Shown one piece after another: positions 3,001 to 15,894 of a stretch of DNA of 17,595 nt. The notes under the pieces are model-generated. The model did not search any database and was not told the origin of the DNA. It was given only the letters and a program-made list of their open reading frames with translations. The translations under genes and the position numbers were made by a program. Origin of the DNA: a candidate division TA06 bacterium SM23_40 (GTDB lineage Bacteria; LJUI01; SM1-40); contig LJUI01000041.1 in the NCBI GenBank assembly GCA_001303705.1, forward strand, positions 1 through 17,595, read 5' to 3'. The stretch's first letter is position 1. Each line of letters opens with the position of its first letter.

Positions 3001-4774
3001 GTCCCCCGGGTGTCTGCCCGCGCATGCCGAGGAGGACGATCAAAGTGATGAATGCGGCGAGGAGGAAACCGAGCGCGGAGAAGTACACGACGGAATGACG
3101 GCGGTAGATCCAGTGCAGGGCGCGGAAACGCCACTTCTCGCCGCATCCGACGAGCAGCGCCAGCTTCTGCCTCCCTTCGCCGACGAGATACGTCCCGACA
3201 TGGGTCCGCCGTTCATCCGCCGCCGTCTCACGGGCGGCGTGCGCCGCAAGAGCGATGGCTTCCCGGGCGACCCGGTCTTCCGCCTGACCGGACCCGCGGG
3301 CGAGCTCCTCGATCCTCCGGCGATACCGGTCGCGTGTGTCGAAATCCATACGGGGATAGATGCCCGATGGATCCGTGCGAAGCAGCCGCTCCACCCGGCT
3401 GAGCTTTTCGAATATTTTTCTCCAATCCAGAAGGGCCAGTTGCCGCAGGCTGGTGAACGCATTTCCGATCGATATCTGATCTCTCATCTGACGGTTGTAC
3501 TCGCGGGGGGTGAGATCGCCGAGGGATATCCGCAGCGTGCGCTCGAGCCATCCCTGAACCGGCACCAGAGCGGCTTCCTGGTCGTAGAGGTTCTCGATCA
3601 GTTGCGCGGCGAAATAGGGGCTCGGGCTCGGGTGCATTTCGGCGAGCTCGGCGAGGATCGAGAAGAGCTGACTGGGATCCCGCCGGTTGGCGGTGATCAG
3701 CCTGTTCGCCCAGAAATCGGCGAATTCGCGCTCCCGCAGCGCCGTCAGCGACTGTTCAGCGAAATTCGAGATGCTCTCGATCAACGCCGCGCGCAGCATC
3801 TGGGGAACGGCCCAGAGCTCGCCGATCGACAGCGCGCCGACCGATTGATATGACTCGATGAAGGCGAGGATGTTCTCCCTGTCGAGGCGCAGGTCCTTAT
3901 GGGAGACGAGACTCCTCGCCAAGCCGTAGATGCGCGGCAGGCCGCGGTAGGGCTCGTTGGCGAGTACCGGCAGTTCCTGGTAATAGCGCCGAGGGAGGTT
4001 CATCTGAATCTCTCGAACGTTGCTCTCGACGATGTACTCGTTGTCCAGGAGCCATTCGGTGGTCGGGGTCGTACTCTGTCCCAGTCGGCTCGCTTCGGCG
4101 AGATCGATGCATGCCCGATGTATCCATCGCATGGTCCGGTCGAGCCGTTTGAGCAGTCCGATGTCCTGGCGGGCATATGGGTCCCCCCGCTGGTCCCCGG
4201 CGAGACGCTCCGCGTATTCCGGGATCTGCGCAGCCGGGAGCGGGCTTCCGAGGTTCTCCGTCTCTCCTACTAGACCCTCCCGCTTCGGATGCAGGATGAA
4301 TATGGCGGGAGGGATCTCGCCGCTCTCTCTCAGTATTGCCACCGGGGAATGCAGCGTTTTGATAGGCGTCCGGAGGATCAGAACGGTCTCTCCGGAAACC
4401 AGCCAGCGTGCGTGATCCTCGAGCAGTCTTCGTTCCAGGCCGAACCTCGATCGCCGTATCCAAGCAGCGGCGAGGAGGATCCCCACGAATCCACCCGCGA
4501 GGCCTGGAATCAGGGCGGAAAGGGCTCCGCCCGGAATCTGCGCCGGCCACTGAAGGGTTATGGAGGTGACTCCGGCGAGGGCCCCGAACAGGATGAACGC
4601 AATGGCCGTCCCGAAAATCCTGCGCCACCGGAAGGGGTCCCGTGTAACCACATTTCCATCCGCGGTCTTGCTCACCAGTGCAGCGCGGCGGAACCCTCTC
4701 CTCTGCAGCTTCTTGAAGGCTCCGCGGGCTTCTTCCCGTTTTGCGAAGTAACCTATGAGGATACCGGTGTCCAT
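1..4774 (-). CDS. ndvB: Cyclic beta-1,2-glucan synthase (NdvB/ChvB-like, GT84), N-terminal part, runs off left edge
   Basis: Inner-membrane enzyme that builds cyclic beta-1,2-glucans from UDP-glucose; 1591 residues are visible in one unbroken frame. The start is ATG at 4774, with AAGGA six bases upstream. Visible in order: a ~45-residue alpha/beta-looking N-terminus; two membrane segments (about 52-75 and 83-105); the family's conserved N-terminal region; a membrane pair around 550-627; the GT84 glycosyltransferase domain with the D778-S-D780 metal/donor motif and Q924-H-R-W927 acceptor-site motif; further membrane segments near 990-1160; then the middle GH144-like/glycoamylase-type region from about 1175, with SPTNIG at 1193-1198 and SIGYN at 1517-1521. 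Family members are usually about 2800 residues with a C-terminal GH94 phosphorylase domain, which must lie beyond the left edge. Family assignment is strong; the exact glucan product and any export partner are inferred, and no transporter gene is visible here. Confidence 0.93.
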   Translation of the reverse strand, partial: MDTGILIGYFAKREEARGAFKKLQRRGFRRAALVSKTADGNVVTRDPFRWRRIFGTAIAFILFGALAGVTSITLQWPAQIPGGALSALIPGLAGGFVGILLAAAWIRRSRFGLERRLLEDHARWLVSGETVLILRTPIKTLHSPVAILRESGEIPPAIFILHPKREGLVGETENLGSPLPAAQIPEYAERLAGDQRGDPYARQDIGLLKRLDRTMRWIHRACIDLAEASRLGQSTTPTTEWLLDNEYIVESNVREIQMNLPRRYYQELPVLANEPYRGLPRIYGLARSLVSHKDLRLDRENILAFIESYQSVGALSIGELWAVPQMLRAALIESISNFAEQSLTALREREFADFWANRLITANRRDPSQLFSILAELAEMHPSPSPYFAAQLIENLYDQEAALVPVQGWLERTLRISLGDLTPREYNRQMRDQISIGNAFTSLRQLALLDWRKIFEKLSRVERLLRTDPSGIYPRMDFDTRDRYRRRIEELARGSGQAEDRVAREAIALAAHAARETAADERRTHVGTYLVGEGRQKLALLVGCGEKWRFRALHWIYRRHSVVYFSALGFLLAAFITLIVLLGMRGQTPGGRLLIILLLSIPASQLSLEILNYMITRLLPPRTLPKMDFEDSGIPDEFRTLVVVPIMLVNAETIQTAVDNLEIRYLANKESNLLFGLYSDYTDSNQEHSGEDESLLRMVTEGIEALNQRYGEERFFLFHRERRWSESEQKFIGWERKRGKLEELNRLIDGTRPADADRLVYVGDPDHLSNVRFIITLDSDTQLPHGTARRMIETLAHPLNQPRFNTEGTIEAGSYAIIQPRVSPSLPSTNASLFSRLFSDPVGIDPYTKAVSDVNQDLAGEGSYHGKGIYDVRAFSRVLSGRFPEECLLSHDLIEGAHVRVGLASDIELYDEFPQDYLSYTGRQHRWIRGDWQIAEWILPRAPQSAGRRGHNPLSRFDRWKIFDNLRRSLVPLASMGLLVPSWLISPRMGLISTCVVAVQLLFHPLAQPFTWATTGRWMKGFSFSKVTHDLLRAVVEAALLPHQAWLALDAIVRIWYRRLISHRRLLEWTSAQVMHWNAPGKVRTFVMTLCLSSIFSGIAVWAVQRWAPSSLPVAGPWLALWFVSPLVGWLLVSQPPAKSRQPHLLEEDHRFLRSIARRTWSYFSEFIGEETSWLPPDNYQVSHTNQLSMRTSPTNIGFWMLSALGAHDFGYLTVDQVVEALTRTTETIGKLERYEGHLLNWYDIRTLAPMEPRYVSMVDSGNLLGCLWALEQGLDELIQTPVLDANAFEGMRDTGEILKQAVEAEGVPGFDAHGLDELLRALKSPPERIADAVRLLRRLESGARALGGEAYESAGVHGSTDLREPAAARGSADSYAGAVYWARQVQSQASAWLGIADRYLAWIEILDEKTEEEIAPLGRDVLLAYSGDLHRAPSLLDLANGTVAIIQLLRSIREEAPADAAPLFEWIDRLIQAFEKSKWLASEMLALSTQLIRDGGELSESINVRFLYDTEQRLFSIGYNVSEGRLDSSYYDLLASEARLGSFIAIARGDVPIEHWFSMSRPYGSIGRHRALLSWAGSMFEYLMPLIFQR

Positions 4775-5706: not shown

Positions 5707-7095
5707 TTGACACGTGCGATCCGATTGTATCTGATCAATCCCTCAAATCCGCTCGTCAGCATCATCAAGATCAAGGAGAGCCGCTGGAACCGTTTCCGCG
5801 TGTGGAAACCGCTCAGTCTCATGGTTCTCGCGGACCTGATCCCACCGGATTGGGAGATCTCGATCTTTGACGAGAACCTCGGCGTTCCGGACTATCCGTC
5901 CCTGCCGCGGCCGGATCTGGTGGGCATTACCGCTTTCACCTCGCAGGCGAACCGCGCGTATGAAGTGGCCGATCACTTCCGGCACTTGGGCGTTCCCGTT
6001 GTCATGGGCGGGATTCACGCAACCATATGCTTAGACGAGGTCATGGAGCGTGTGGATTCGGTTGTCACGGGGGAGGCCGAGGGCATTTGGCATCAGATTC
6101 TGGAAGATGCCCGGCATAAAGGCCTGAAGCGACGGTACGACGGCGGCCTTGCCGCCTCGACCGAAATGCCGATCTCTCGGCACGATTTGCTGGATTCGAG
6201 ATACGCATTCGGAGCCATTCAGACGACACGGGGCTGTCCCTTGAACTGCAGTTTTTGCAGTGTTTCGGCGTTCAACGGGATTCACTACCGCCAACGGTCG
6301 ATTGCCGACGTGGTGCAGGAATTTAAGATGATACGCGAGAAACGTGTTTTAGTGGTGGACGACAACCTCATCGGCACGCGGCCCGAGCACATCGCCCGCG
6401 CCAAGGATCTCTTCCGCGCCTTGGCAAAGGCGGAAGTGCGAAAGGAATGGGTTGCACAGGCCACCATTAATTTCGCCGATGACGATGAACTTCTCGCGTT
6501 GGCCGCGAAAGCTGGTTGCAGCGGCGTCTTCATCGGATTCGAGTCCCCCGTACCGGATGGGCTTCTAGAAATTGGCAAGAAATTCAACCTTCTTAACGGC
6601 CGGGACTTCCGAGCCTCCGTGTAAAGAATTCAGCGTTACAACATAATAGTAGTAGGTTCCCTTATCATTGGTTTGGACGTAGATAAACCGGGCATCGGCA
6701 AACATGTCGCCGAGGTAGCTGACCGGTACGGTGTTGACAGTCTCAACGCGCTGTTTTTGACGCCGTTGCCCGGCACACGTCTCTGGGAGAAGATGAAATC
6801 GGGGGATCGAATCGCTCTCGATGCATTCCCGGAAGATTGGAAATACTATACGCTGACATACCCGGTGGCACGATACAAGCACCTGTCACTAGACGATGTC
6901 TTGCAAGAAATGATAACCTGTAACCACACTTTCTATTCCTTGCCACGCGTTCTTCGCAGAATTTGGAGTAGTGTGAGGCATTACCGCAAGCCGTGGCTGA
7001 GCATAATAGGAAATTTTTCGAGCAGGGGCAACATCCGCTTGGCACACAGGTTGTACGAGGTATACCGGCGTCAGGTTTGGGATAAATTCTCATGA
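5707..7095 (+). pseudogene. B12-binding-domain radical SAM protein, interrupted by an in-frame TAA
   Basis: Read through one stop codon, the frame encodes about 462 residues, typical of B12-binding-domain radical SAM proteins. Residues 1-135 resemble the cobalamin-binding Rossmann domain; C177, C181 and C184 form the CxxxCxxC motif binding the 4Fe-4S/SAM cluster; the SPASM-less C-terminus resembles the DUF4070-type tail. TAA at 6622-6624 stops translation after residue 305, in the middle of the radical SAM barrel. The same frame then continues without a shift (RIQRYNI, FIIGLDVD, PLPGTRLW) to TGA at 7093-7095. An in-frame TGA ends at 5706, so the only start available there is TTG at 5707, with no clear Shine-Dalgarno. 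The 3' part alone would not be a working enzyme. A sequencing error at the TAA is the main alternative. Confidence 0.85.
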
Positions 7096-7180
7096 TGATT
7101 CGGATCGGTTCCGTAGTATTACACCGGTGAGTATTTCTTTTAGTAAGAGGGTGGCAGTTTCATATAGCACAACTGTTGTT

Positions 7181-7250
7181 TTATCAGTCGGTTAGCTGCC
7201 CAAAAGGTCTCTTAATCAGTAGGTTCGGGGTTCGATTCCCTGGCGGTGCA
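7181..7250 (+). repeat. Leader copy A: tRNA-Lys(CUU)-like relic, 3' half well kept
   Basis: The 3' half fits tRNA geometry exactly: anticodon loop CTCTTAA (7209-7215), 3' anticodon stem TCAGT, 5-nt variable region AGGTT, T-arm CGGGG-TTCGATT-CCCTG (7226-7242), acceptor strand GCGGTGC and discriminator A7250. A D-loop-like AGTCGGTTA precedes it (7186-7194). The 5' anticodon stem (AAGGT) does not pair with TCAGT, and no good 5' acceptor strand exists, so it is not a working tRNA. A T-rich tract with the palindrome ATTGCAAT (7265-7272) follows. It lies between the broken radical SAM gene and kinase 1. Confidence 0.75.
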
Positions 7251-7310
7251 TTTTTATTTATTTAATTGCAATAAGTTAGCGGCCTTGGGTTTTAAGGCGA
7301 AAATCCAAAA

Positions 7311-7346
7311 AATCAAAAGGTAGCGCATAGGTAGCAGCAAGATGCT
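7311..7346 (+). promoter_or_regulatory. Leader copy A: conserved block with small hairpin
   Basis: Stem AGCA (7333-7336) pairs with TGCT (7343-7346) around the hexaloop GCAAGA. Just before it, AGGTAGC occurs twice with an 11-bp period (7318-7324 and 7329-7335), the second overlapping the stem. The stem differs in the other leaders but remains paired. Confidence 0.6.
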
Positions 7347-7380
7347 GTATGTTTTGAATTTTCTACTATTGCGTTCCGGT

Positions 7381-7442
7381 TTATAACAAGTGTGTGCTAT
7401 TGTGTATATATATAGTATAATCAACGCACCTGGAGAGCTCTC
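7381..7442 (+). promoter_or_regulatory. Leader copy A: promoter and RBS of kinase 1
   Basis: A perfect TATAAT (7416-7421) begins 27 nt before the ATG. The expected -35 position (about 7393-7398, TGTGCT) does not match TTGACA. The Shine-Dalgarno GGAG (7432-7435) lies 7 nt before the start, inside the perfect 10-bp palindrome GAGAGCTCTC (7433-7442), which abuts the ATG. The predicted UTR is only about 15 nt. Confidence 0.6.
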
Positions 7443-9686
7443 ATGATCGGAAAGACCATTTCCCATTACGAAATCCTTGAGAAGCTCGGCGAGGGCGGTA
7501 TGGGTGTGGTCTACAAGGCCCGCGATACCAGGCTCGACCGGCCGGTCGGGATAAAATTCCTCCCGCCCCATCTGAGCCAGAAGGAGGACGCAAAGAAACG
7601 GTTCGTGCAGGAGGCCAAAGCGGCCTCCGCCCTCGACCATCCCAATATCTGCACCATATATGAGATAGACGAGATTCCTGAAGGACAGATGTTCATCGTC
7701 ATGGCCCACTACGAGGGGGAAACCCTGGAGGAGAGGGTGAAAAAGGGCGGGATCGGCGTCGAGGAGGCGTGCGATATCGTCGAGGCGGTCGCCGGTGGCC
7801 TGGCCGAAGCGCACCGGAGGGGGATCGTCCACCGGGACATCAAGTCGTCCAATATCCTCATCACCGGGGGCGGCCGGGCGAAGATCATCGATTTCGGCCT
7901 GGCCAAGCTGGCCGAGCAAAGCCACCTGACGAGGGAAGGGACTACGTTGGGTACGGTCAAGTACATGTCCCCCGAGCAGGCGCGAGGGGACGAGGTCGAT
8001 CACCGCACTGACATCTGGTCGACGGGGGTGCTCCTCTACGAGGTGATTACCGGCCGAAAGCCGTTCCGGGGGGATTACGACCAGGCGGTCATCTACTCGA
8101 TCCTGAACGATGAGCCGCCGGGGATCAAGACGCTCCGCCCCGAGGCGCCCGCGGCGGTGGAGAAGGTCATCAAAAAGGCCCTGGCCAAGGATCCGGAGCA
8201 GCGGTATCAGCGGATCGAGGATCTGGCGGCGGATGTGCGGTCGGTCCGGGAGGCGGCCCGGACGAAGACGGCGTCGGGGCGGCCCGACCGGGAAAAGCGC
8301 TCCATCGCGGTACTTCCCTTCGTCGACATGAGCCCCCAGAAGGACCAGGAGTACTTCTGCGACGGCCTGGCCGAGGAGCTGATCAATGCGCTGGCCCACA
8401 TCAAGCCGCTCCGCGTGGTGGCCCGGACATCGGCATTCTCGCTCAAGGGCGGGAAGTACGATGTGCGCGAGATCGGCGAGAAGCTGAACGTCGACACGGT
8501 GCTCGAGGGGAGTATCCGGAAGGCGGGCGAGCGGCTTCGGATCACCGCCCAGCTCGTCAGCGCCGCTGATGGGTATCATATCTGGTCGGAGAAGTACGAC
8601 CGCAAGCTGGAGGATATCTTCGCCATACAGGACGAGATCTCGCTCGCGATCGTTGACAAGCTGAAGATAGAACTCCTGGGCGACGAAGCCACCCGGCTGG
8701 TGAAGCGCGGCACGGAGAACCTCGAGGCGTACGATCTCTATATCAGGGGCCGCTTTTTCTGGGAGAAGCGTGGCGAGGGGCTGAAAAGGGCGGTCGAGTA
8801 TTTCGAGAAGGCGATAGAGAAGGACCCGAACTACGCGGAAGCGTACGCCGGTATCGCGGAATCCTACAATCTGCTCTCCTTCTACGGCTACCTGCTGTCC
8901 CGGGAGGCGATTCCCATCGCCAGGGAGAACGCCCTGAAGGCCCTCGAGATCAACGATACCATTGCCGAGGCCCACAACGCTCTGGGATGGATCCACCAGT
9001 ATCACGATTGGGATGGATCGGCGGCTGAGCAGGAGTTCAAGCGGGCCCTGGAACTCAATCCCACTTATACGCCGGCTCATTACTGGTATGCTTCGATGCT
9101 CTCGTTGACGGATCGAGATGATGAGATGCTACGGGAGAACGAGCGCGCGATAGAGGTAGATCCGCTCTCGGTCGTGGCACATGCACAGTACGGCTGGGAC
9201 CTGATCGGCAGGCTTAAATTAGATCAGGCGGAAGAGAAGCTGAAACGCGCGCTCGAGCTAAACCCTGACTACGCGCTCGCCCACTGGCTGCTCGGTTGGG
9301 TCTACGACCTCATGTCGAAAGACGACCAGGCCATCACAGAGCTTCGAAAATCGGTGGAATTGTCTGGCCGCAATCCATGGATACTTTCGACGCTCGGCAA
9401 TGTATACGGCAAAGTGGGGAGGACGGCGGAAGCCCTGGAGGTGCTCACCGAACTTCAGGAACGTTCCGAGAACGAATACGTCCAATCGCTCTATTTCGCG
9501 TATGCTTACGCGGGGCTCGGAGAGCTCGAGGAGACATTGACCTGGCTGGAGAAAGCGTATGAAGCCCATGAACTATGGCTGATCGTGATCGGAAGGTTTT
9601 GGCATATGGATCCTGTCTTCGAAAAAATCCGGGATGATCCCCGTTTCCAGGCGTTTGTCCGGAAGATCCTTGCCTCAATACGTTGA
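7443..9686 (+). CDS. Ser/Thr protein kinase 1 with TolB/FlgO-like and TPR domains, no membrane segment
   Basis: A 747-residue Hanks-type kinase, apparently complete. The kinase domain spans about 9-270: glycine loop LGEGGMGVV (15-23), ATP-binding K38, helix-C E57, catalytic H130-R-D132 with K134 and N137, D150-F-G, and T167/T168 in the activation loop before GTVKYMSPE. A TolB-like/FlgO-type domain follows (about 286-406, starting RSIAVLPF), then TPR repeats to the end (about 430-735, e.g. AVEYFEKAIEKDPNYAEAYAG). No hydrophobic segment separates kinase and sensor, so unlike the next three kinases it is probably cytoplasmic. The ATG is fixed by the conserved RBS block and by the MIGKTISHY opening shared with its neighbours. 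The first two thirds are visibly more GC-rich than the last third. The substrate is unknown. Confidence 0.95.
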   Translation: MIGKTISHYEILEKLGEGGMGVVYKARDTRLDRPVGIKFLPPHLSQKEDAKKRFVQEAKAASALDHPNICTIYEIDEIPEGQMFIVMAHYEGETLEERVKKGGIGVEEACDIVEAVAGGLAEAHRRGIVHRDIKSSNILITGGGRAKIIDFGLAKLAEQSHLTREGTTLGTVKYMSPEQARGDEVDHRTDIWSTGVLLYEVITGRKPFRGDYDQAVIYSILNDEPPGIKTLRPEAPAAVEKVIKKALAKDPEQRYQRIEDLAADVRSVREAARTKTASGRPDREKRSIAVLPFVDMSPQKDQEYFCDGLAEELINALAHIKPLRVVARTSAFSLKGGKYDVREIGEKLNVDTVLEGSIRKAGERLRITAQLVSAADGYHIWSEKYDRKLEDIFAIQDEISLAIVDKLKIELLGDEATRLVKRGTENLEAYDLYIRGRFFWEKRGEGLKRAVEYFEKAIEKDPNYAEAYAGIAESYNLLSFYGYLLSREAIPIARENALKALEINDTIAEAHNALGWIHQYHDWDGSAAEQEFKRALELNPTYTPAHYWYASMLSLTDRDDEMLRENERAIEVDPLSVVAHAQYGWDLIGRLKLDQAEEKLKRALELNPDYALAHWLLGWVYDLMSKDDQAITELRKSVELSGRNPWILSTLGNVYGKVGRTAEALEVLTELQERSENEYVQSLYFAYAYAGLGELEETLTWLEKAYEAHELWLIVIGRFWHMDPVFEKIRDDPRFQAFVRKILASIR

Positions 9687-9820
9687 GCGGTAAGATCAAG
9701 GGGGAGCTTCCTATGCATCGGGAATAGCTGCCTGAATCGTTTCCGTCCGATCGTCTGCATTCTCCAGTCGGATAAAAAGCCGTATATATGATATGGCAAC
9801 CACGCCACTTAACTGATTTT
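9687..9820. other. Spacer between kinase 1 and leader copy B
   Basis: I see no gene or convincing terminator. The sequence GTATATATGATATGG near 9782-9796 resembles the -10 region of leader B (about 10041-10058) and could be a decayed promoter remnant or simple AT-rich coincidence. Confidence 0.35.
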
Positions 9821-9890
9821 TTATCAGTCGGTTAGGTGCCCAAATGACCTCTTAATCAGTAGGTTCGGGGTTCGATTCCCTGGCGGCGTA
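9821..9890 (+). repeat. Leader copy B: tRNA-Lys(CUU)-like relic
   Basis: It has the same layout as copy A: D-loop-like AGTCGGTTA, anticodon loop CTCTTAA (9849-9855), variable AGGTT, intact T-arm with TTCGATT (9871-9877), and acceptor strand GCGGCGT plus A. In this copy TGA (9845-9847) can still pair with TCA after the loop, around an 8-nt loop, which supports descent from a tRNA-Lys anticodon arm. The following palindrome is broken here (ATTGTAAT). Confidence 0.72.
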
Positions 9891-9951
9891 TTTTTTATTT
9901 GTTTAATTGTAATAGGGTAGCGGCTTAGAACTTCAAAGCGAAAATCCTAAA

Positions 9952-9986
9952 AATCGAAAGGTAGCGCATAGGTGCAGCAAAATGCA
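9952..9986 (+). promoter_or_regulatory. Leader copy B: conserved block with small hairpin
   Basis: Stem TGCA (9973-9976) pairs with TGCA (9983-9986) around GCAAAA. Compared with copy A the first and last stem bases are swapped (A-T to T-A), so pairing is kept. The first AGGTAGC direct repeat is intact and the second is lost. Confidence 0.6.
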
Positions 9987-10020
9987 GTAGTTGCTGTATT
10001 TCTTCCTATTACGTCCTGGT

Positions 10021-10083
10021 TTATAACTCGTGCATGCTCTTATATATATGATATAGTATGCTTGACGTATCCGGAGATCTCTC
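10021..10083 (+). promoter_or_regulatory. Leader copy B: promoter and RBS of kinase 2
   Basis: The -10 is TATGCT (10057-10062), again starting 27 nt before the ATG. TTATAACTCGTG lies 36 bp upstream of it, as in copy D. The Shine-Dalgarno GGAG (10073-10076) overlaps the 8-bp palindrome GAGATCTC (10074-10081). Confidence 0.55.
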
Positions 10084-12420
10084 ATGATCGGTAAGACTAT
10101 ATCTCACTATAAAATACTCGAAGAACTCGGCCGCGGCGGTATGGGTGTTGTCTACAAGGCGGAAGATACGAAGCTCCGCCGCACCGTAGCGCTGAAGTTC
10201 CTCACTCCCCAGGCGCTCGGGACGGAAGACGAGAAAGCGCGCTTCATACACGAGGCGCAGGCGGCCGCCGCGCTCAATCATCCCAATATCTGCACGGTCT
10301 ACGAGATCGATGAGTTGGAAGGCCGATCCTTTATTGCGATGGAATATATCGAGGGACGGAGTTTGAGGGATATCATCGCGTCGGGTCCGATGAAATTGGA
10401 GATAGCACAGGGAATCGCGATACAGATTGCCGGGGGGTTGCATGCGGCTCACCAAAGACAAATCGTGCATCGCGACATAAAGCCCGCGAATATCATGATC
10501 ACCGGCGAGGGAAGAGTTAAGATCATGGACTTCGGTCTCGCGAAGTCGCCGGGCCGAACGCAGCTCACGCGCGAAGGGACTACGCTTGGAACGGTGGCAT
10601 ACATGTCGCCTGAGCAGAGCAGAGGAGAGGCGGTTGATTCTCGCACTGACATCTGGTCACTCGGTGTGATGCTCTATGAAATGGTAACGGGGCAGGCACC
10701 GTTCAGAGGTGACTATGAGCAGGCAGTTATCTACTCGATCCTGCACGAGGACCCCGAGCCGGTGACGGCGCTTCGAACCGGCGTGCCGGTTGAGCTTGAG
10801 AGAATCGCTCACAAGGCGATGGCAAAGAACGCGAGTGATCGATACCAGCGTGCCGATGAGCTGCTGGTGGATCTCAGATCTTTGTCGGCTGAGATAACAA
10901 CCACCGGTTTAGCAAAGGGTCCAGCAAAGAAAGGATTCACGGGAAAGCATATCGGTTTTGTATTCGGTTCGGTAGTAATTATCGTTGCAGCTCTCGTGCT
11001 TGCAAGACTCTATCTCTTTCCCGAAAAAAGCGAAGCGATCGATTCGATAGCGGTGCTGCCGCTCGAGAATTTATCACGGGATCCTGATCAGGAATACTTC
11101 GTTGATGGGATGACCGAGGCGCTTATCGCCGATCTTGGGAAGACCGGCACGATCAAGGTGATCTCGCGGACATCGGTCATGCGCTACAAGGATACAGACA
11201 AATCCCTGCCGGAGATTGCGAACGAGCTCGGCGTCGATGCGATCGTCGAGGGATCGGTCATGCAGACAGGAGGCCGGGTGCGCATCACGGCACAGCTCAT
11301 CGAGGCGGACGAGGATCATCAAATCTGGGGGGAGCACTACGAGCGTGACCTGCAAGATGTCCTGGCGCTACAGCGTGGGGTAGCACGCGCGATCGCCAGT
11401 GAAATAAATATCACTTTGGCACCAGGGGAAAAAGGCGAAAAATCTGATGCCCGCCGGATCGATCCCCGCGCTCATGAAGCGTACCTCAAGGGGCGCTACC
11501 ACTGGAACAAGAGGACGGAGAAGGATCTCTGGAAAAGCATCGAATATTTCGAGGAGGCTATCAGGATGGATCCCGATTACGCCCAGGCGTATGCGGGACT
11601 TGCGGAAGCCTTCACCATACTCAGAAACTGGGGATATTATTCGGCAAAAGAAGCCAATCAAAAAGCAAAGGAATACGCCCACAAGGCGCTCTCGATAGAC
11701 AACAAATCGGCGGCGGCGTATTCGGTGCTCGGCCTAGAATCTCTCGAATACGAGTATAACTGGGAGGCTGCGGAAGAATATTTTAAAAAAGCGATATCGC
11801 TGAATCCGAACTATGCCACCGCTCACCATTGGTATGCAAATATTCTTGCCCGCTGGGGGCGACATGATGAGGCGATGGAACAGATGCTGCGAGCCCTGAA
11901 GCTCGATCCACTGTCCCTTGTCATAAACGTGGCCCTTGCTCTTAACTATTATTATGTGGGTCGCTACGATGAAGCGATCGAGCAGAGCCGGAAGTCGCTC
12001 GAACTGGATAAGAATTTCCTTGCTGCTTATTTTGTTTTGTACCTTTGCTACGTAGAGAAAGGAATGATTCAGGAAGCTTACGAGGCATTCAGGCAAGTGA
12101 TGATCCTTGACGAAAAAACAAGCATATATGTGGAAGAACTCGACCATGTCTGCAAAACGTCGGGGTACGAAGTCTGCAATACATGGTGGGTAATCAAGAA
12201 CATGGATGAATGGTCGTTCCATGACTATAACTACCCGTTCTATCGGTCCATGGCTTATGCACGGATTGATAATAAGGACAAAGCGTTTGAAGAATTGGAA
12301 AAGGCGTATGAAGCGCGTTCGCCGTATTTAATATCGATCGGCGTCGAGCCGGCGCTCGACACCCTTCGATCGGATCCGCGTTTTGATGAGCTGCTCAAAA
12401 AGGTCGGATTAAAAGAGTGA
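10084..12420 (+). CDS. Ser/Thr receptor kinase 2 with membrane segment, TolB/FlgO-like and TPR domains
   Basis: A 778-residue Hanks-type kinase. Kinase domain about 9-268: glycine loop LGRGGMGVV (15-23), K38, H129-R-D131 with K133 and N136, D149-F-G, activation-loop T166/T167. One hydrophobic segment (about 290-312, GFVFGSVVIIVAALVLARLYL) should anchor it, placing the TolB/FlgO-like domain (about 320-440, SIAVLPLENLS) and TPR array (about 460-770) outside the cytoplasm. The region around TTLGT-YMSPEQ through PFRGDY is nearly the same as in kinase 1, while the TPR half is much more different. Its 3' end is AT-richer than the kinase half. The start is fixed by the shared leader and MIGKTISHY opening. 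The ligand is unknown; an intact catalytic set argues it is active. Confidence 0.95.
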   Translation: MIGKTISHYKILEELGRGGMGVVYKAEDTKLRRTVALKFLTPQALGTEDEKARFIHEAQAAAALNHPNICTVYEIDELEGRSFIAMEYIEGRSLRDIIASGPMKLEIAQGIAIQIAGGLHAAHQRQIVHRDIKPANIMITGEGRVKIMDFGLAKSPGRTQLTREGTTLGTVAYMSPEQSRGEAVDSRTDIWSLGVMLYEMVTGQAPFRGDYEQAVIYSILHEDPEPVTALRTGVPVELERIAHKAMAKNASDRYQRADELLVDLRSLSAEITTTGLAKGPAKKGFTGKHIGFVFGSVVIIVAALVLARLYLFPEKSEAIDSIAVLPLENLSRDPDQEYFVDGMTEALIADLGKTGTIKVISRTSVMRYKDTDKSLPEIANELGVDAIVEGSVMQTGGRVRITAQLIEADEDHQIWGEHYERDLQDVLALQRGVARAIASEINITLAPGEKGEKSDARRIDPRAHEAYLKGRYHWNKRTEKDLWKSIEYFEEAIRMDPDYAQAYAGLAEAFTILRNWGYYSAKEANQKAKEYAHKALSIDNKSAAAYSVLGLESLEYEYNWEAAEEYFKKAISLNPNYATAHHWYANILARWGRHDEAMEQMLRALKLDPLSLVINVALALNYYYVGRYDEAIEQSRKSLELDKNFLAAYFVLYLCYVEKGMIQEAYEAFRQVMILDEKTSIYVEELDHVCKTSGYEVCNTWWVIKNMDEWSFHDYNYPFYRSMAYARIDNKDKAFEELEKAYEARSPYLISIGVEPALDTLRSDPRFDELLKKVGLKE

Positions 12421-12469
12421 TCGGTGAAATCATTTGGTAATGCATTTTCGATAGACTTAAAATGACAAC

Positions 12470-12592
12470 ATGATCGGTAAGACCATTTCACATTACAATA
12501 TCCTCGAAGAACTCAGCCGCAGCGGCATGTTGGTTGTCTACAAGGCGAAGGATACGAAGCCGAAGCACACTGTGGTGCTTGAGCTCCTTTAG
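12470..12592 (+). pseudogene. Relic of a Ser/Thr kinase N-lobe (40 codons)
   Basis: ATG to TAG encodes 40 residues that align without gaps to the start of the neighbouring kinases (MIGKTISHYNILEEL, then VVYKAKDTK), closest to kinase 2. The glycine loop is degraded (SRSGML instead of GRGGMG) and the ATP-binding lysine is replaced by glutamate (VVLELL instead of VALKFL), so it cannot be a kinase. Several differences look like G-to-A changes. It starts 49 nt after the kinase 2 stop and has none of the conserved leader in front of it: no -10 at the expected spacing and no Shine-Dalgarno. It ends 14 bp before leader copy C. Best read as the leftover of a partial duplication or deletion; a translated micropeptide is unlikely. 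Confidence 0.8.
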
Positions 12593-12605
12593 CTCACCTG
12601 ATGTA

Positions 12606-12675
12606 TTATCAGCAGGTTTGACGCCCAATTGGTCTCTTAGTCAGTAGGTTCGGGGTTCGATTCCCTGGTGGTGCA
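12606..12675 (+). repeat. Leader copy C: tRNA-Lys(CUU)-like relic
   Basis: T-arm CGGGG-TTCGATT-CCCTG is intact (12651-12667). The anticodon loop reads CTCTTAG (12634-12640) with 3' stem TCAGT, and the acceptor strand is GTGGTGC plus A. The D-loop-like part is more diverged (ATCAGCAGGTTTG). The T-rich tract and ATTGCAAT palindrome follow, as in copy A. Confidence 0.7.
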
Positions 12676-12735
12676 TTTTTATTTATTTAATTGCAATAAG
12701 TTAACGTTTTAGAGCCCCGTTCCCAATATCCCGAA

Positions 12736-12771
12736 AATCGAAAGGTAGCGCATAGGTAGCAGCAGAATGCT
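12736..12771 (+). promoter_or_regulatory. Leader copy C: conserved block with small hairpin
   Basis: Stem AGCA (12758-12761) pairs with TGCT (12768-12771) around GCAGAA. Both AGGTAGC repeats with the 11-bp period are present, as in copy A. Confidence 0.6.
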
Positions 12772-12790
12772 GTATTTATTGTTTCTCCTG

Positions 12791-12864
12791 CTATAACATC
12801 TATATGACTAGTGTATCACCTTGCGGGTATGATACAGTATATGTAACGTGCCTGGAGAGCTCTC
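12791..12864 (+). promoter_or_regulatory. Leader copy C: promoter and RBS of kinase 3
   Basis: The -10 candidate TATATG (12838-12843) keeps the 27-nt distance to the ATG. Upstream, the TATAAC motif is 10 bp further away than in the other copies, so this is the most rearranged promoter. GGAG (12854-12857) overlaps the perfect palindrome GAGAGCTCTC (12855-12864). Confidence 0.5.
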
Positions 12865-15552
12865 ATGATCGGCAAGACAGTATCCCATTACAAGATCCTC
12901 GAAAAGCTTGGTGAGGGCGGGATGGGTGTGGTATATCGTGCGCACGATACCGCGTTGGGCCGTGACGTTGCACTCAAGTTCCTGCCCACCAACTTAACCC
13001 GCGATCCCACGGCCAAGACGCGGTTCGTCCGAGAGGCACGTGCAGCCTCCGCACTCGATCATCCAAATGTATCCACGGTGTACGAGATAGACGAGACCGA
13101 AGAGGGTCAGCTTTTTATCGCCATGACCTACTATGAAGGTGAGGCATTGAGAGAAAGGCTCTCCCGCGGGCCCCTGCCCCTGGAGGATGCCATGAGCATA
13201 ACAATTCAGATCGCGCAAGGGCTCTTGGCTGCTCACCAAAAGGATATCGTCCACCGGGATATCAAGGCGGCGAATGTTTTTCTTACCTCCAGCGGCCTCG
13301 TGAAGATCCTGGATTTCGGGCTGGCGAAGCTTTCCGGGGTGACGCAGCTGACACTGCCCGAGACGACCGTCGGCACGGTTTCTTACATGTCCCCGGAGCA
13401 GGCCCAGGGAGCGGAGATCGACAGCCGATCCGACGTATGGTCATTGGGCGTCGTTCTCTACGAGATGGTCACCGGCCAACTGCCCTTTCGAGGGGAATTC
13501 CCGGAGGCGATGGTGTACTCCATCCTCAATGAAGATCCCCCGCGCGTGACCGGGCTGCGGTCGGGTGTTCCTCTTGAACTGGAGAGAATCATCGATAAGT
13601 GCCTCGCAAAGGGTGCGGACCAGCGGTATCAGCACCTCGATGATCTCATCGTCGATCTCAACCGCCTTAAGCCTTCCCTGGCCAGTGGGTCAGGTGTGAG
13701 ATCAATGGAGCCTGCGAGCACAGTTCGAGGTGTACGCCGTTCACTGCTGTTCGCGGTGGCCGGGTTCGGTTGGCTTGCAGCCGTTATGGTCAGCCTTTAT
13801 CTGTTGCGTCCCCCCGCGCAGCATCCTCCCGTGCGGCTGCATACTATCTCTTACTCCGGTCGGGACTGGGCGCCCAACGCTTCCCCGGCAGGAGACATGA
13901 TCGCATTCGCATCCGATCGCGACGGAGTGTCCCGGATCTGGCTCAAGCAGGTGGCCGGCGGCAGCGAGGAGCCCATTACAGAAGGGCCCGACGATCTTCC
14001 CCGCTTCTCGCCAGACGGAGCGCAGATCCTGTTTGTGCGAGACCTGGGTGGCACGAGGGATCTCTACCGTACATCTGTAGTCGGTGCCCAGCAGCGCCGG
14101 ATACTCGAGGATGTAAGCGAGGCCGACTGGTCACCGGACTTGAAGAATGTGGCTTTTATAAGAACGGAACCGGTGGGCGAGGATAATATCGAGGTCATCG
14201 GCGTGGCAGATATTCAAACGGGTGATGAGCAGATCCTCGCAGAGATTCCAAATCGCCTTTGCTACGGTATCCGGTGGTCACCGGATGGACGGCGTATCGC
14301 CGTGAGCGAGACTCATTCATCTCCCGCGACGACAGGGTTCCACTATATCGACTTGATCTACGTTCCATCGGGCGAGATCACGCGCCTCGAGCTCACCGAC
14401 ATGGCGGGACCGTACACGGCTACCGAGTGGGGCCCGGACGGCCAGACGTTTCTGGCCGGTCAGGCTGCAGCCGTTCTCACGCAGTTCGGGGATTTCCCCG
14501 GCCAGATCATGGAGTACGACCTCGAATCAAAGACCGTTCACCCCTTGTTCTGGTCACCCGTCAAGCTGCCGTTTGGCGGGCGGAGATTCTCGACGATTGC
14601 TATTCTCGGTAACGATCGGTTCGTCATAGACGAAAATATAGCCAATTCGGTCCTCATTGAAGTTCCATGGTCTGGAAAGAACAGCACCGGCTTGGGAAGA
14701 ACGCTCACACGTGGATTGGGACGGGACCGGCAGCCCGCCTATTCACCGGACGGGGATCGTGTCATCTTCTCGTCCAATCGCAGCGGGAACACCGATCTCT
14801 GGACCGTCGACCGGAACACGGGAACAATCCGCCAGCTGACCGACGATCCCGCTATCGATTATGATCCGGCGTTCTTCCCCGACGGCGAGCGCATCGTGTG
14901 GACATCCACCCGCAGCGGCAATCCGGAGATCTGGATGGCTGCCGCCGATGGAAGCCGGGCACAGCAGGTCACGCGGGACGGCATGGATGCAGAGAATGCG
15001 ACCGTTACTGCCGACGGGGAATGGATCGTATACGGCAGTTTCAACGATGAAACGATCGGTATATTGAAAATACGCCCCGACGGTTCGGATATGACGTTCC
15101 TTGCGGAAGGCTCCTATGTTAATCCCGAAGTTTCGCCTGACGGACGGTACGTTCTGTTTCTGGTAACTCGCGGCCTCGGCACTGTTATGAAAATTGTCGA
15201 GACCGAGAGTGCCCGGATAGTGCCATTCGAGATCGAATTTCCCACGAGAATGCTGCACGAGAATATAGTTATCGGGCGCGCACGGTGGACGCACGACGGC
15301 CGTGGAATCGTCTATGTGGGGCATGATGAACGAGGGTGCTTCGGTATCTACGTGCAGGATTTCATCCCGGGACGCGACACGTCCGGATCACGAAGGCCGC
15401 TTGCCGGTTTCTCGAATGACTTTATCACGGAATCTCTCGGTGTCTCGCCCGATGGCAGGCACATCGCTATCTCAGTACTGTCCGAGCGTCTGAGTCTCAA
15501 GCTCGCCGAGCTGGTACCCCTTAGTTGGGGGGACGGCACGAGCGCCGAATAG
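12865..15552 (+). CDS. Ser/Thr receptor kinase 3 with membrane segment and WD40-like (PD40/TolB) beta-propeller
   Basis: An 895-residue Hanks-type kinase. Kinase domain about 9-270: glycine loop LGEGGMGVV (15-23), K38, H130-R-D132, D150-F-G, activation-loop T167/T168 before VGTVSYMSPEQ. A single membrane segment (about 293-314, SLLFAVAGFGWLAAVMVSLYLL) is followed by a long extracytoplasmic region (about 325-885) built of roughly eleven PD40-type repeats. Their SPDG-like turns include FSPDGAQILF, WSPDGRRIAV, YSPDGDRVIF, FFPDGERIVW and VSPDGRYVLF, some followed by SNRSGN or STRSGN and then an [DE][IL]W strand. This fold matches the TolB C-terminal propeller and replaces the TolB-like+TPR part of the neighbouring kinases. 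It probably senses a periplasmic protein or cell-wall ligand, which is inferred. The start is fixed by the conserved leader. Confidence 0.95.
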   Translation: MIGKTVSHYKILEKLGEGGMGVVYRAHDTALGRDVALKFLPTNLTRDPTAKTRFVREARAASALDHPNVSTVYEIDETEEGQLFIAMTYYEGEALRERLSRGPLPLEDAMSITIQIAQGLLAAHQKDIVHRDIKAANVFLTSSGLVKILDFGLAKLSGVTQLTLPETTVGTVSYMSPEQAQGAEIDSRSDVWSLGVVLYEMVTGQLPFRGEFPEAMVYSILNEDPPRVTGLRSGVPLELERIIDKCLAKGADQRYQHLDDLIVDLNRLKPSLASGSGVRSMEPASTVRGVRRSLLFAVAGFGWLAAVMVSLYLLRPPAQHPPVRLHTISYSGRDWAPNASPAGDMIAFASDRDGVSRIWLKQVAGGSEEPITEGPDDLPRFSPDGAQILFVRDLGGTRDLYRTSVVGAQQRRILEDVSEADWSPDLKNVAFIRTEPVGEDNIEVIGVADIQTGDEQILAEIPNRLCYGIRWSPDGRRIAVSETHSSPATTGFHYIDLIYVPSGEITRLELTDMAGPYTATEWGPDGQTFLAGQAAAVLTQFGDFPGQIMEYDLESKTVHPLFWSPVKLPFGGRRFSTIAILGNDRFVIDENIANSVLIEVPWSGKNSTGLGRTLTRGLGRDRQPAYSPDGDRVIFSSNRSGNTDLWTVDRNTGTIRQLTDDPAIDYDPAFFPDGERIVWTSTRSGNPEIWMAAADGSRAQQVTRDGMDAENATVTADGEWIVYGSFNDETIGILKIRPDGSDMTFLAEGSYVNPEVSPDGRYVLFLVTRGLGTVMKIVETESARIVPFEIEFPTRMLHENIVIGRARWTHDGRGIVYVGHDERGCFGIYVQDFIPGRDTSGSRRPLAGFSNDFITESLGVSPDGRHIAISVLSERLSLKLAELVPLSWGDGTSAE

Positions 15553-15637
15553 CCCGGATCCCCAGTCGTGATCCTTTGCGGAATGTCCTGGGATACCATG
15601 AAGTCATTCGTTCAGCACAATAAGAAAAGCTGTTGTT

Positions 15638-15708
15638 TTATCAGTAGGTTAGCTGCCCAAAAGGCCTCTGAATCAGTAGGTTCTCCGGTTCGATTCCTTG
15701 GCGGCGTA
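15638..15708 (+). repeat. Leader copy D: tRNA-Lys-like relic, most decayed
   Basis: The loop TTCGATT (15689-15695) remains, but the T-stem no longer pairs well (TCCGG against CCTTG), and the anticodon loop reads CTCTGAA. The acceptor strand is GCGGCGT plus A. The 11-bp direct repeat ATCAGTAGGTT is perfect here (15640-15650 and 15672-15682, 32-bp period). Because the sequence block survives while tRNA pairing does not, selection for tRNA function is unlikely. ATTGCAAT follows. Confidence 0.68.
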
Positions 15709-15769
15709 TTTTTTATTTATTTAATTGCAATAAGTTAACGACTTACAGCATCGCTACCAAAATCACAAA

Positions 15770-15805
15770 AATCGAAAGGTAGCGCATAGGTAGTAGCAAA
15801 ATACT
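15770..15805 (+). promoter_or_regulatory. Leader copy D: conserved block with small hairpin
   Basis: Stem AGTA (15792-15795) pairs with TACT (15802-15805) around GCAAAA. Relative to copies A and C, the inner C-G pair is changed to T-A on both sides. The first AGGTAGC repeat is intact; the second ends in T. Confidence 0.6.
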
Positions 15806-15831
15806 GTAATTACTGTCTACCACATTCTGGC

Positions 15832-15894
15832 TTATAACTCGTGTATGCTCTTGTTTGTATGATATAGTATAATGAGCTTACCTGGAGAACTCTC
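15832..15894 (+). promoter_or_regulatory. Leader copy D: promoter and RBS of kinase 4
   Basis: A perfect TATAAT (15868-15873) starts 27 nt before the ATG. The -35 position (about 15845-15850, ATGCTC) is not consensus. GGAG (15884-15887) is present, but the palindrome has one mismatch here (GAGAACTCTC, 15885-15894). Confidence 0.6.

Follow-up and report, generated by a model that had tools for sequence, protein, structure and literature searches.

The window analysed here (17,595 nucleotides) is the entire 17.6-kb contig LJUI01000041.1 of the candidate division TA06 bacterium SM23_40 (GCA_001303705.1), whose genome comprises 2.88 Mb in 189 contigs and is about 90% complete. It holds four Ser/Thr kinase genes (K1-K4), each preceded by a leader of about 260 nt (LK1-LK4), and a truncated kinase N-terminus between K2 and K3 (Table 1). 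The GC content is 38-42% in the leaders and 53-60% in the genes. A B12-binding radical-SAM gene at 5707-7095 is seemingly split by a frameshift into the frames 5707-6624 and 6673-7095, and positions 7090-7180, upstream of LK1, look like what is left of a secreted-protein gene's end and its 3' flank.

Table 1. Features of the kinase array (positions in the window).
Feature	Position	Strand	Basis or remark
Leader LK1: probable tRNA-Lys fossil, T-rich tract, GGTAGC repeat, putative promoter/RBS	7181..7442	+	leader alignment, searches
Leader LK2	9821..10083	+	leader alignment, searches
Leader LK3	12600..12864	+	5' part runs on from the truncated kinase fragment
Leader LK4	15633..15894	+	leader alignment, searches
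tRNA-Lys(CTT)-derived core of LK1 (putative), anticodon loop to acceptor 3' end	7210..7250	+	identity to true tRNA-Lys(CTT) genes; crossover region
Equivalents of the core in LK2, LK3, LK4	9850-9891, 12635-12675, 15668-15709
T-rich tract of LK1, probably a former tRNA trailer/terminator	7251..7280	+
GGTAGC-N5-GGTAGC direct repeat of LK1, arm-type-like	7319..7338	+
Equivalents of the GGTAGC repeat	12744, 15778		LK2 copy near 9960, one base shorter
Module B of LK1: promoter-like region and RBS, kinase-restricted	7360..7442	+	equivalents end at 10083, 12864, 15894
K1, Ser/Thr kinase with TPRs	7443..9686	+
K2, Ser/Thr kinase with TPRs	10084..12420	+
Truncated kinase N-terminus joined to the tRNA-Lys core of LK3	12471..~12590	+	two more copies in the relative G059
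K3, Ser/Thr kinase with PD40 propeller	12865..15552	+
K4, Ser/Thr kinase, cut by contig end	15895..17595	+

The four leaders align over about 260 nt with pairwise identities of 76-82%, and with leader 1 as query the other three were recovered from the own genome at E-values of 1e-51 to 1e-68 and identities of 76-81%, which confirms the description in the first-pass annotation of one ordered module before each kinase ATG. The distances from the TTCGATT T-loop to the ATG that it had given (212, 213, 209 and 206 nt) were reproduced exactly. It had also stated that the other genes of the window lack such a leader, and indeed no comparable fifth leader was found in the window or elsewhere in the own genome as assembled (2.88 Mb, about 90% complete); the fifth match of leader 1 in that genome is a true tRNA-Lys(CTT) gene. 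Conserved blocks alternate with diverged spacers more strongly than chance would give: the variance of 20-column windows across the alignment was 37, as compared with 9.7 in shuffled alignments, and none of 5000 shuffles was as high. Regarding the individual blocks, the identity among the four leaders is 89% in the tRNA-3' block, 92% in both the T-rich and the GGTAGC block, 60% in the first spacer and 73% in the promoter region.

The first approximately 165 nt of the leader, here called module A, consist of the tRNA-Lys(CTT) 3' fossil suggested by the matches below, the T-rich tract and the GGTAGC direct repeat. The 5' block includes an anticodon loop (CTCTTAA), the variable region, the T arm and the acceptor 3' strand, without CCA, and its core shows up to 34 of 34 identical nt when set against true tRNA-Lys(CTT) genes from unrelated genomes. 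Searches of 59 distant relatives gave short matches to the tRNA core only; those passed to ARAGORN were mostly identified as tRNA-Lys(CTT) (the match L009 was not called tRNA-Lys). Chance matches of the T-loop pattern in tmRNA and in coding DNA were not counted as fossils. Judged by these identities, the core is a fossil of the 3' part of tRNA-Lys(CTT). The earlier designation as a tRNA-like block holds for its derivation and fails for its fold: a functional tRNA is ruled out, as ARAGORN called none, Rfam gave no tRNA up to E=5 and the leaders fold no better than shuffled sequence (z-scores of -1.3 to +0.7). A known RNA leader such as a riboswitch or T-box is likewise ruled out, no Rfam family having matched up to E=5 except a sub-threshold isrN on the opposite strand; the consensus fold of the leaders is weak. 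The tRNA-Lys(TTT) of the relative G059 has a trailer similar to the T-rich tract. What had been named a hairpin block is mainly the direct repeat GGTAGC-N5-GGTAGC, which with its flanks is 92% conserved among the four leaders; the only hairpin is weak and lies 3' of the repeat. In its arrangement the repeat looks like integrase arm sites. Viral contigs yielded 39 matches to the 17-nt GGTAGC pattern, judged to be chance (module A model scores of E 0.04-0.6), and no module match was found in the phages and plasmids searched.

Only two genomes carry the module, the own genome and that of the near relative G059 (CP070727.1, a metagenome-assembled genome in a 4.1-Mb chromosome assembly). Module B, the last approximately 80 nt of the leader, was found before kinases alone and is probably an ordinary promoter with RBS for the kinase, promoter activity being predicted from sequence. 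The whole leader is present on 4 of the 11 kinases of the own genome, all four in this array, and on 2 of the 20 kinases of G059 (542 k, 909 k), where one further kinase, the K3 orthologue (10595), has module B only; a contig search revealed neither module at other kinase loci. In G059, module A stands alone at three places, before secreted-protein genes at 4243 and 906528 and before a radical-SAM gene at 7885. Leaders at places with no kinase downstream, which the first-pass annotation had named as evidence against its proposal of a dedicated kinase control module, therefore do occur for module A, while module B remains kinase-only. Since most kinases have no leader, module A also precedes other genes, and the own-genome copies are confined to one array, neither the dedicated control module nor the genome-wide regulon is upheld: the leader is not the regulon of a kinase family.

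The tRNA core occurs before K1-K4 in the window and at no fewer than six places in G059, and in both the cargo is bounded by core copies, which repeat, in direct orientation, the 3' end of the tRNA gene that would be the target. All copies of module A lie within clusters of kinase and secreted-protein genes and are co-oriented with the next gene. The window has the order K2, kinase fragment, core, K3. Its counterpart in G059 has 8.7 kb between core and K3, provided that the two stretches are joined across the scaffold gap in K2 (L121/L120); the 8.7-kb interval contains two more copies of module A as well as secreted-protein and radical-SAM genes. The radical-SAM genes stand between modules A and B, and the boundary of this insertion is not at the core; the same applies to the boundary at the K1 orthologue, which has no leader. 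A remnant of a secreted-protein gene end similar to that upstream of LK1 precedes module A in G059 (L120 7835, L121 14476). The gap in the K2 orthologue consists of 100 N (L121 15331-15430), and the C-terminal part of this gene appears to begin the CP070727 record (L120 69), which suggests a misjoined start at a repeated kinase. G059 also contains a second family of intergenic repeats, each about 350 nt long (1146299, 2325813, 3993959, 226959, 3473312 and 3506499; L347-L352), some copies of which begin with GGTAGCAAATAGGTAGC right after the ends of secreted-protein genes or their remnants.

The flanks of the approximately 32-bp tRNA core were compared over 95 nt to the left and 100 nt to the right. 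The 909-k copy of G059 is a mosaic, its left side being 93% identical to the non-kinase copy at 7885 and its right side 83-85% identical to the leaders of the window. The copies with the truncated kinase N-terminus share nothing with module A except the core; LK3 is intermediate among these, the kinase fragment forming its far left side. The left side of the 906-k copy is unrelated. Incompatible column pairs amounted to 2 of 66 within the left side, 96 of 156 between left and right, and 32 of 78 within the right side; on account of the last figure, the core is not the only place of recombination or convergence. By this comparison, the sequences to the left and right of the core have recombined with each other, with a right side that is not clean.

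The kinase domains of K1-K4 are 53-63% identical in amino acids and 26-46% identical at 4-fold sites, and their synonymous sites are saturated. Over the first 42 codons the pooled 4-fold identity is about 42%, as against about 32% in the rest of the kinases. The AU test rejects a clade of the leader-bearing kinases, a group defined before the tree was built (p=0.000177). For the K2 orthologues of the two genomes, identity is 95% in amino acids, 78% at 4-fold sites and 81% in the leader, with values of 92% for the core and 97% for the GGTAGC block. Because the kinases form no clade and their synonymous sites are saturated, the leaders are the younger part, the kinases being much older than the paralogous leaders; and as the latter, at 76-82%, match the leader (81%) and 4-fold identity (78%) of the K2 orthologues, they date from about the time when the two genomes split. 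Simple duplication of whole leader-kinase units is ruled out by the AU test and by the gap between leader and 4-fold identities. The first-pass annotation was right that this is not simple leftover duplication, the leaders being far more alike than the 4-fold sites. These comparisons leave three routes: the leaders were transferred to the kinases, the kinases were placed behind the leaders, or the leaders were homogenised.

Kinases also adjoin tRNA genes elsewhere in the two genomes. In G059, a tRNA-Arg(TCT) 5' half is followed by a kinase, a kinase fragment and the intact tRNA-Arg(TCT), to which the half is 98% identical, with TGGCACAAATGTGGCACA nearby; this locus (2240898-2243930; L320 6902-9930) continues into tandem tRNA 3'-end repeats (CCTGCCGGGCGCATTTTACTATAAAGG). 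Contig C104 of the own genome has the order tyrosine integrase of 355 aa, TGGCACAAATCTGGCACA, tRNA-Arg(TCG), kinase; a TGGCACA direct repeat lies between the integrase and the tRNA, and the kinase domain lies within an open frame of 1292 aa (L333 275-6571). Further tRNA 3' fossils are those of tRNA-Arg(TCT) at 220040, adjoining secreted-protein genes, and of tRNA-Lys(TTT) at 2671277. Two nearly full-length tRNA-Asn-like sequences with similar downstream sequence, not called by ARAGORN, were noted on contigs C28 and C90 of the own genome (L335 2862-2932, L336 1427-1499). The window has no integrase gene, and none of the 10 integrase hits in the two genomes, four of which adjoin tRNAs, is linked to the GGTAGC repeats or to this site. 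An intact tRNA-Lys(CTT) as a possible target was not found in G059, and that of the own genome differs from the leader fossil. As neither genome yielded a cognate integrase, an empty site or a product of excision, the mechanism is one that we infer.

Our preferred explanation, which we hold to be probable on balance, is that the leader is a tRNA-gene attachment-site scar plus an ordinary promoter, marking the accretion and shuffling of gene cassettes and not a switch dedicated to kinases. Module A would be the scar, made up of a core of about 32 bp from the 3' half of tRNA-Lys(CTT), a T-rich trailer and, in the GGTAGC repeat, a putative arm site; module B would be the kinase's own active promoter and RBS, joined to module A. 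Integrative elements targeting the tRNA would have inserted and accreted in the array by integrase action, each leaving a copy of the core, and the kinases would have arrived as nearly single-gene cassettes carrying their own promoter. Later exchanges at the core would have put already divergent kinases, secreted-protein genes and radical-SAM genes behind one site. The observations that speak for this are the identity of the core to tRNA-Lys, the mosaic flanks, the non-kinase copies, the polyphyly of the kinases and the kinase-tRNA-integrase neighbourhoods elsewhere, along with the younger age of the leaders, the further tRNA 3' fossils and the GC contrast between leaders and genes. Against it count the negative searches for a linked integrase, for a target tRNA in G059, for an empty site and for an excision product, the difference between the fossil and the own genome's tRNA-Lys(CTT), the two insertion boundaries away from a core, the conflicts among right-hand columns, the conservation of the T-rich and GGTAGC blocks and the restriction of the module to two genomes. 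A CIME by definition has no integrase; the absence of a cognate one therefore bars assignment to the ICE/IME class and leaves a decayed CIME-like scar compatible.

The main rival of the attachment-scar reading takes the leader for a passive fossil whose tandem copies have undergone homologous recombination. An ancestral kinase would have stood beside a decayed tRNA-Lys, the leader-kinase unit would have been duplicated in tandem, and exchange by ordinary homologous recombination or gene conversion, at the leaders and the 5' ends of the kinases, would then have swapped the downstream genes and kept the leaders alike. This would agree with the confinement of the own-genome copies to one tandem array, with the raised 4-fold identity of the first 42 codons, as expected from conversion spilling past the ATG, with the conflicts among the right-hand columns, and with the frequency of segment duplication here. 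We nevertheless regard it as not very likely: the kinase-fragment copies and the 906-k copy have, on one side, only the core of about 32 bp in common, which is short for homologous recombination, copies precede unrelated gene families, and independent kinases sit at tRNA-Arg genes with integrase-like direct repeats.

That the leader is a dedicated regulatory element of the kinase family, acting as RNA or through regulator binding sites, appears improbable given its absence from most kinases, the non-kinase copies of module A and the Rfam and folding results, even though the block conservation is non-random, promoter and RBS are linked to kinases, and the orthologous core and GGTAGC block are more conserved than the 4-fold sites; a regulatory role could also explain why the T-rich and GGTAGC blocks stay conserved. 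A tRNA-derived dispersed repeat of MITE or SINE type inserting upstream of genes would account for a short module A at several intergenic places, in a lineage whose member G059 has the second intergenic family of about 350 nt; yet the boundary on the left is formed by the tRNA core, whose flanks are mosaic, and not by fixed ends with target duplications, and all copies lie in kinase/secreted-gene clusters in the orientation of the next gene, which makes this reading very improbable.

Under the attachment-scar reading, the array is best likened, by analogy, to accreted ssrA islands, to tRNA-Lys(ctt) additive islands and to CIMEs. In the tandem ssrA genomic islands of Dehalococcoides, cargo modules are bounded by short direct repeats of the 3' end of the RNA gene, 15 islands without an integration module were proposed to be cis-mobilizable, and the trees of cargo and integration parts are discordant (PMC3146451). 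The tandem cargo between 3'-end repeats of an RNA gene is common to both; the Dehalococcoides islands, however, have a known target gene, an integrase and a 20-bp repeat, whereas here the core is derived from tRNA-Lys, the cassettes hold close to one gene each, and cognate integrase and target were not found in the two genomes. Recurring copies of tRNA 3' ends likewise mark the additive flexible genomic islands of Methylophilaceae, with tRNA-Lys(ctt) repeats (PMC10872708), and the tRNA cassette islands of Alteromonas (PMC4119200), but neither has a link of scar and promoter heading a kinase gene family. CIMEs are decayed elements that retain attL and attR and pile up in tandem at a tRNA gene (reviewed in PMC5704250); decayed att copies would have accumulated in tandem here too. 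To integron cassette arrays the likeness is one of working only, namely co-oriented, nearly single-gene cassettes with a repeated recombination site between them; unlike in integrons, the site is tRNA-derived and the cassettes have their own promoter. The integron attC boxes RYYYAAC/GTTRRRY are absent from LK1, LK3 and LK4, and LK2 has a chance-like pair.

A bolder and rather unlikely extension would be that this uncultured lineage has a cassette system working like an integron. Single-gene cassettes with their own promoters would be shuffled by a tyrosine recombinase acting in trans, with a tRNA-Lys-derived site and its GGTAGC arm repeats as the common joint, and the lineage's set of Ser/Thr kinases, whose sensor domains would be exchangeable, would have been built up in this way. 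Large numbers of 'MIGKTISHY' Ser/Thr kinases that differ in their sensor domains are found in several groups of uncultured bacteria. That paralogous genes share a conserved leader does not by itself make the leader regulatory, and divergent kinases behind a common tRNA-derived scar suggest that tRNA-targeted integration is one source of such kinase repertoires, an origin that thereby becomes testable.
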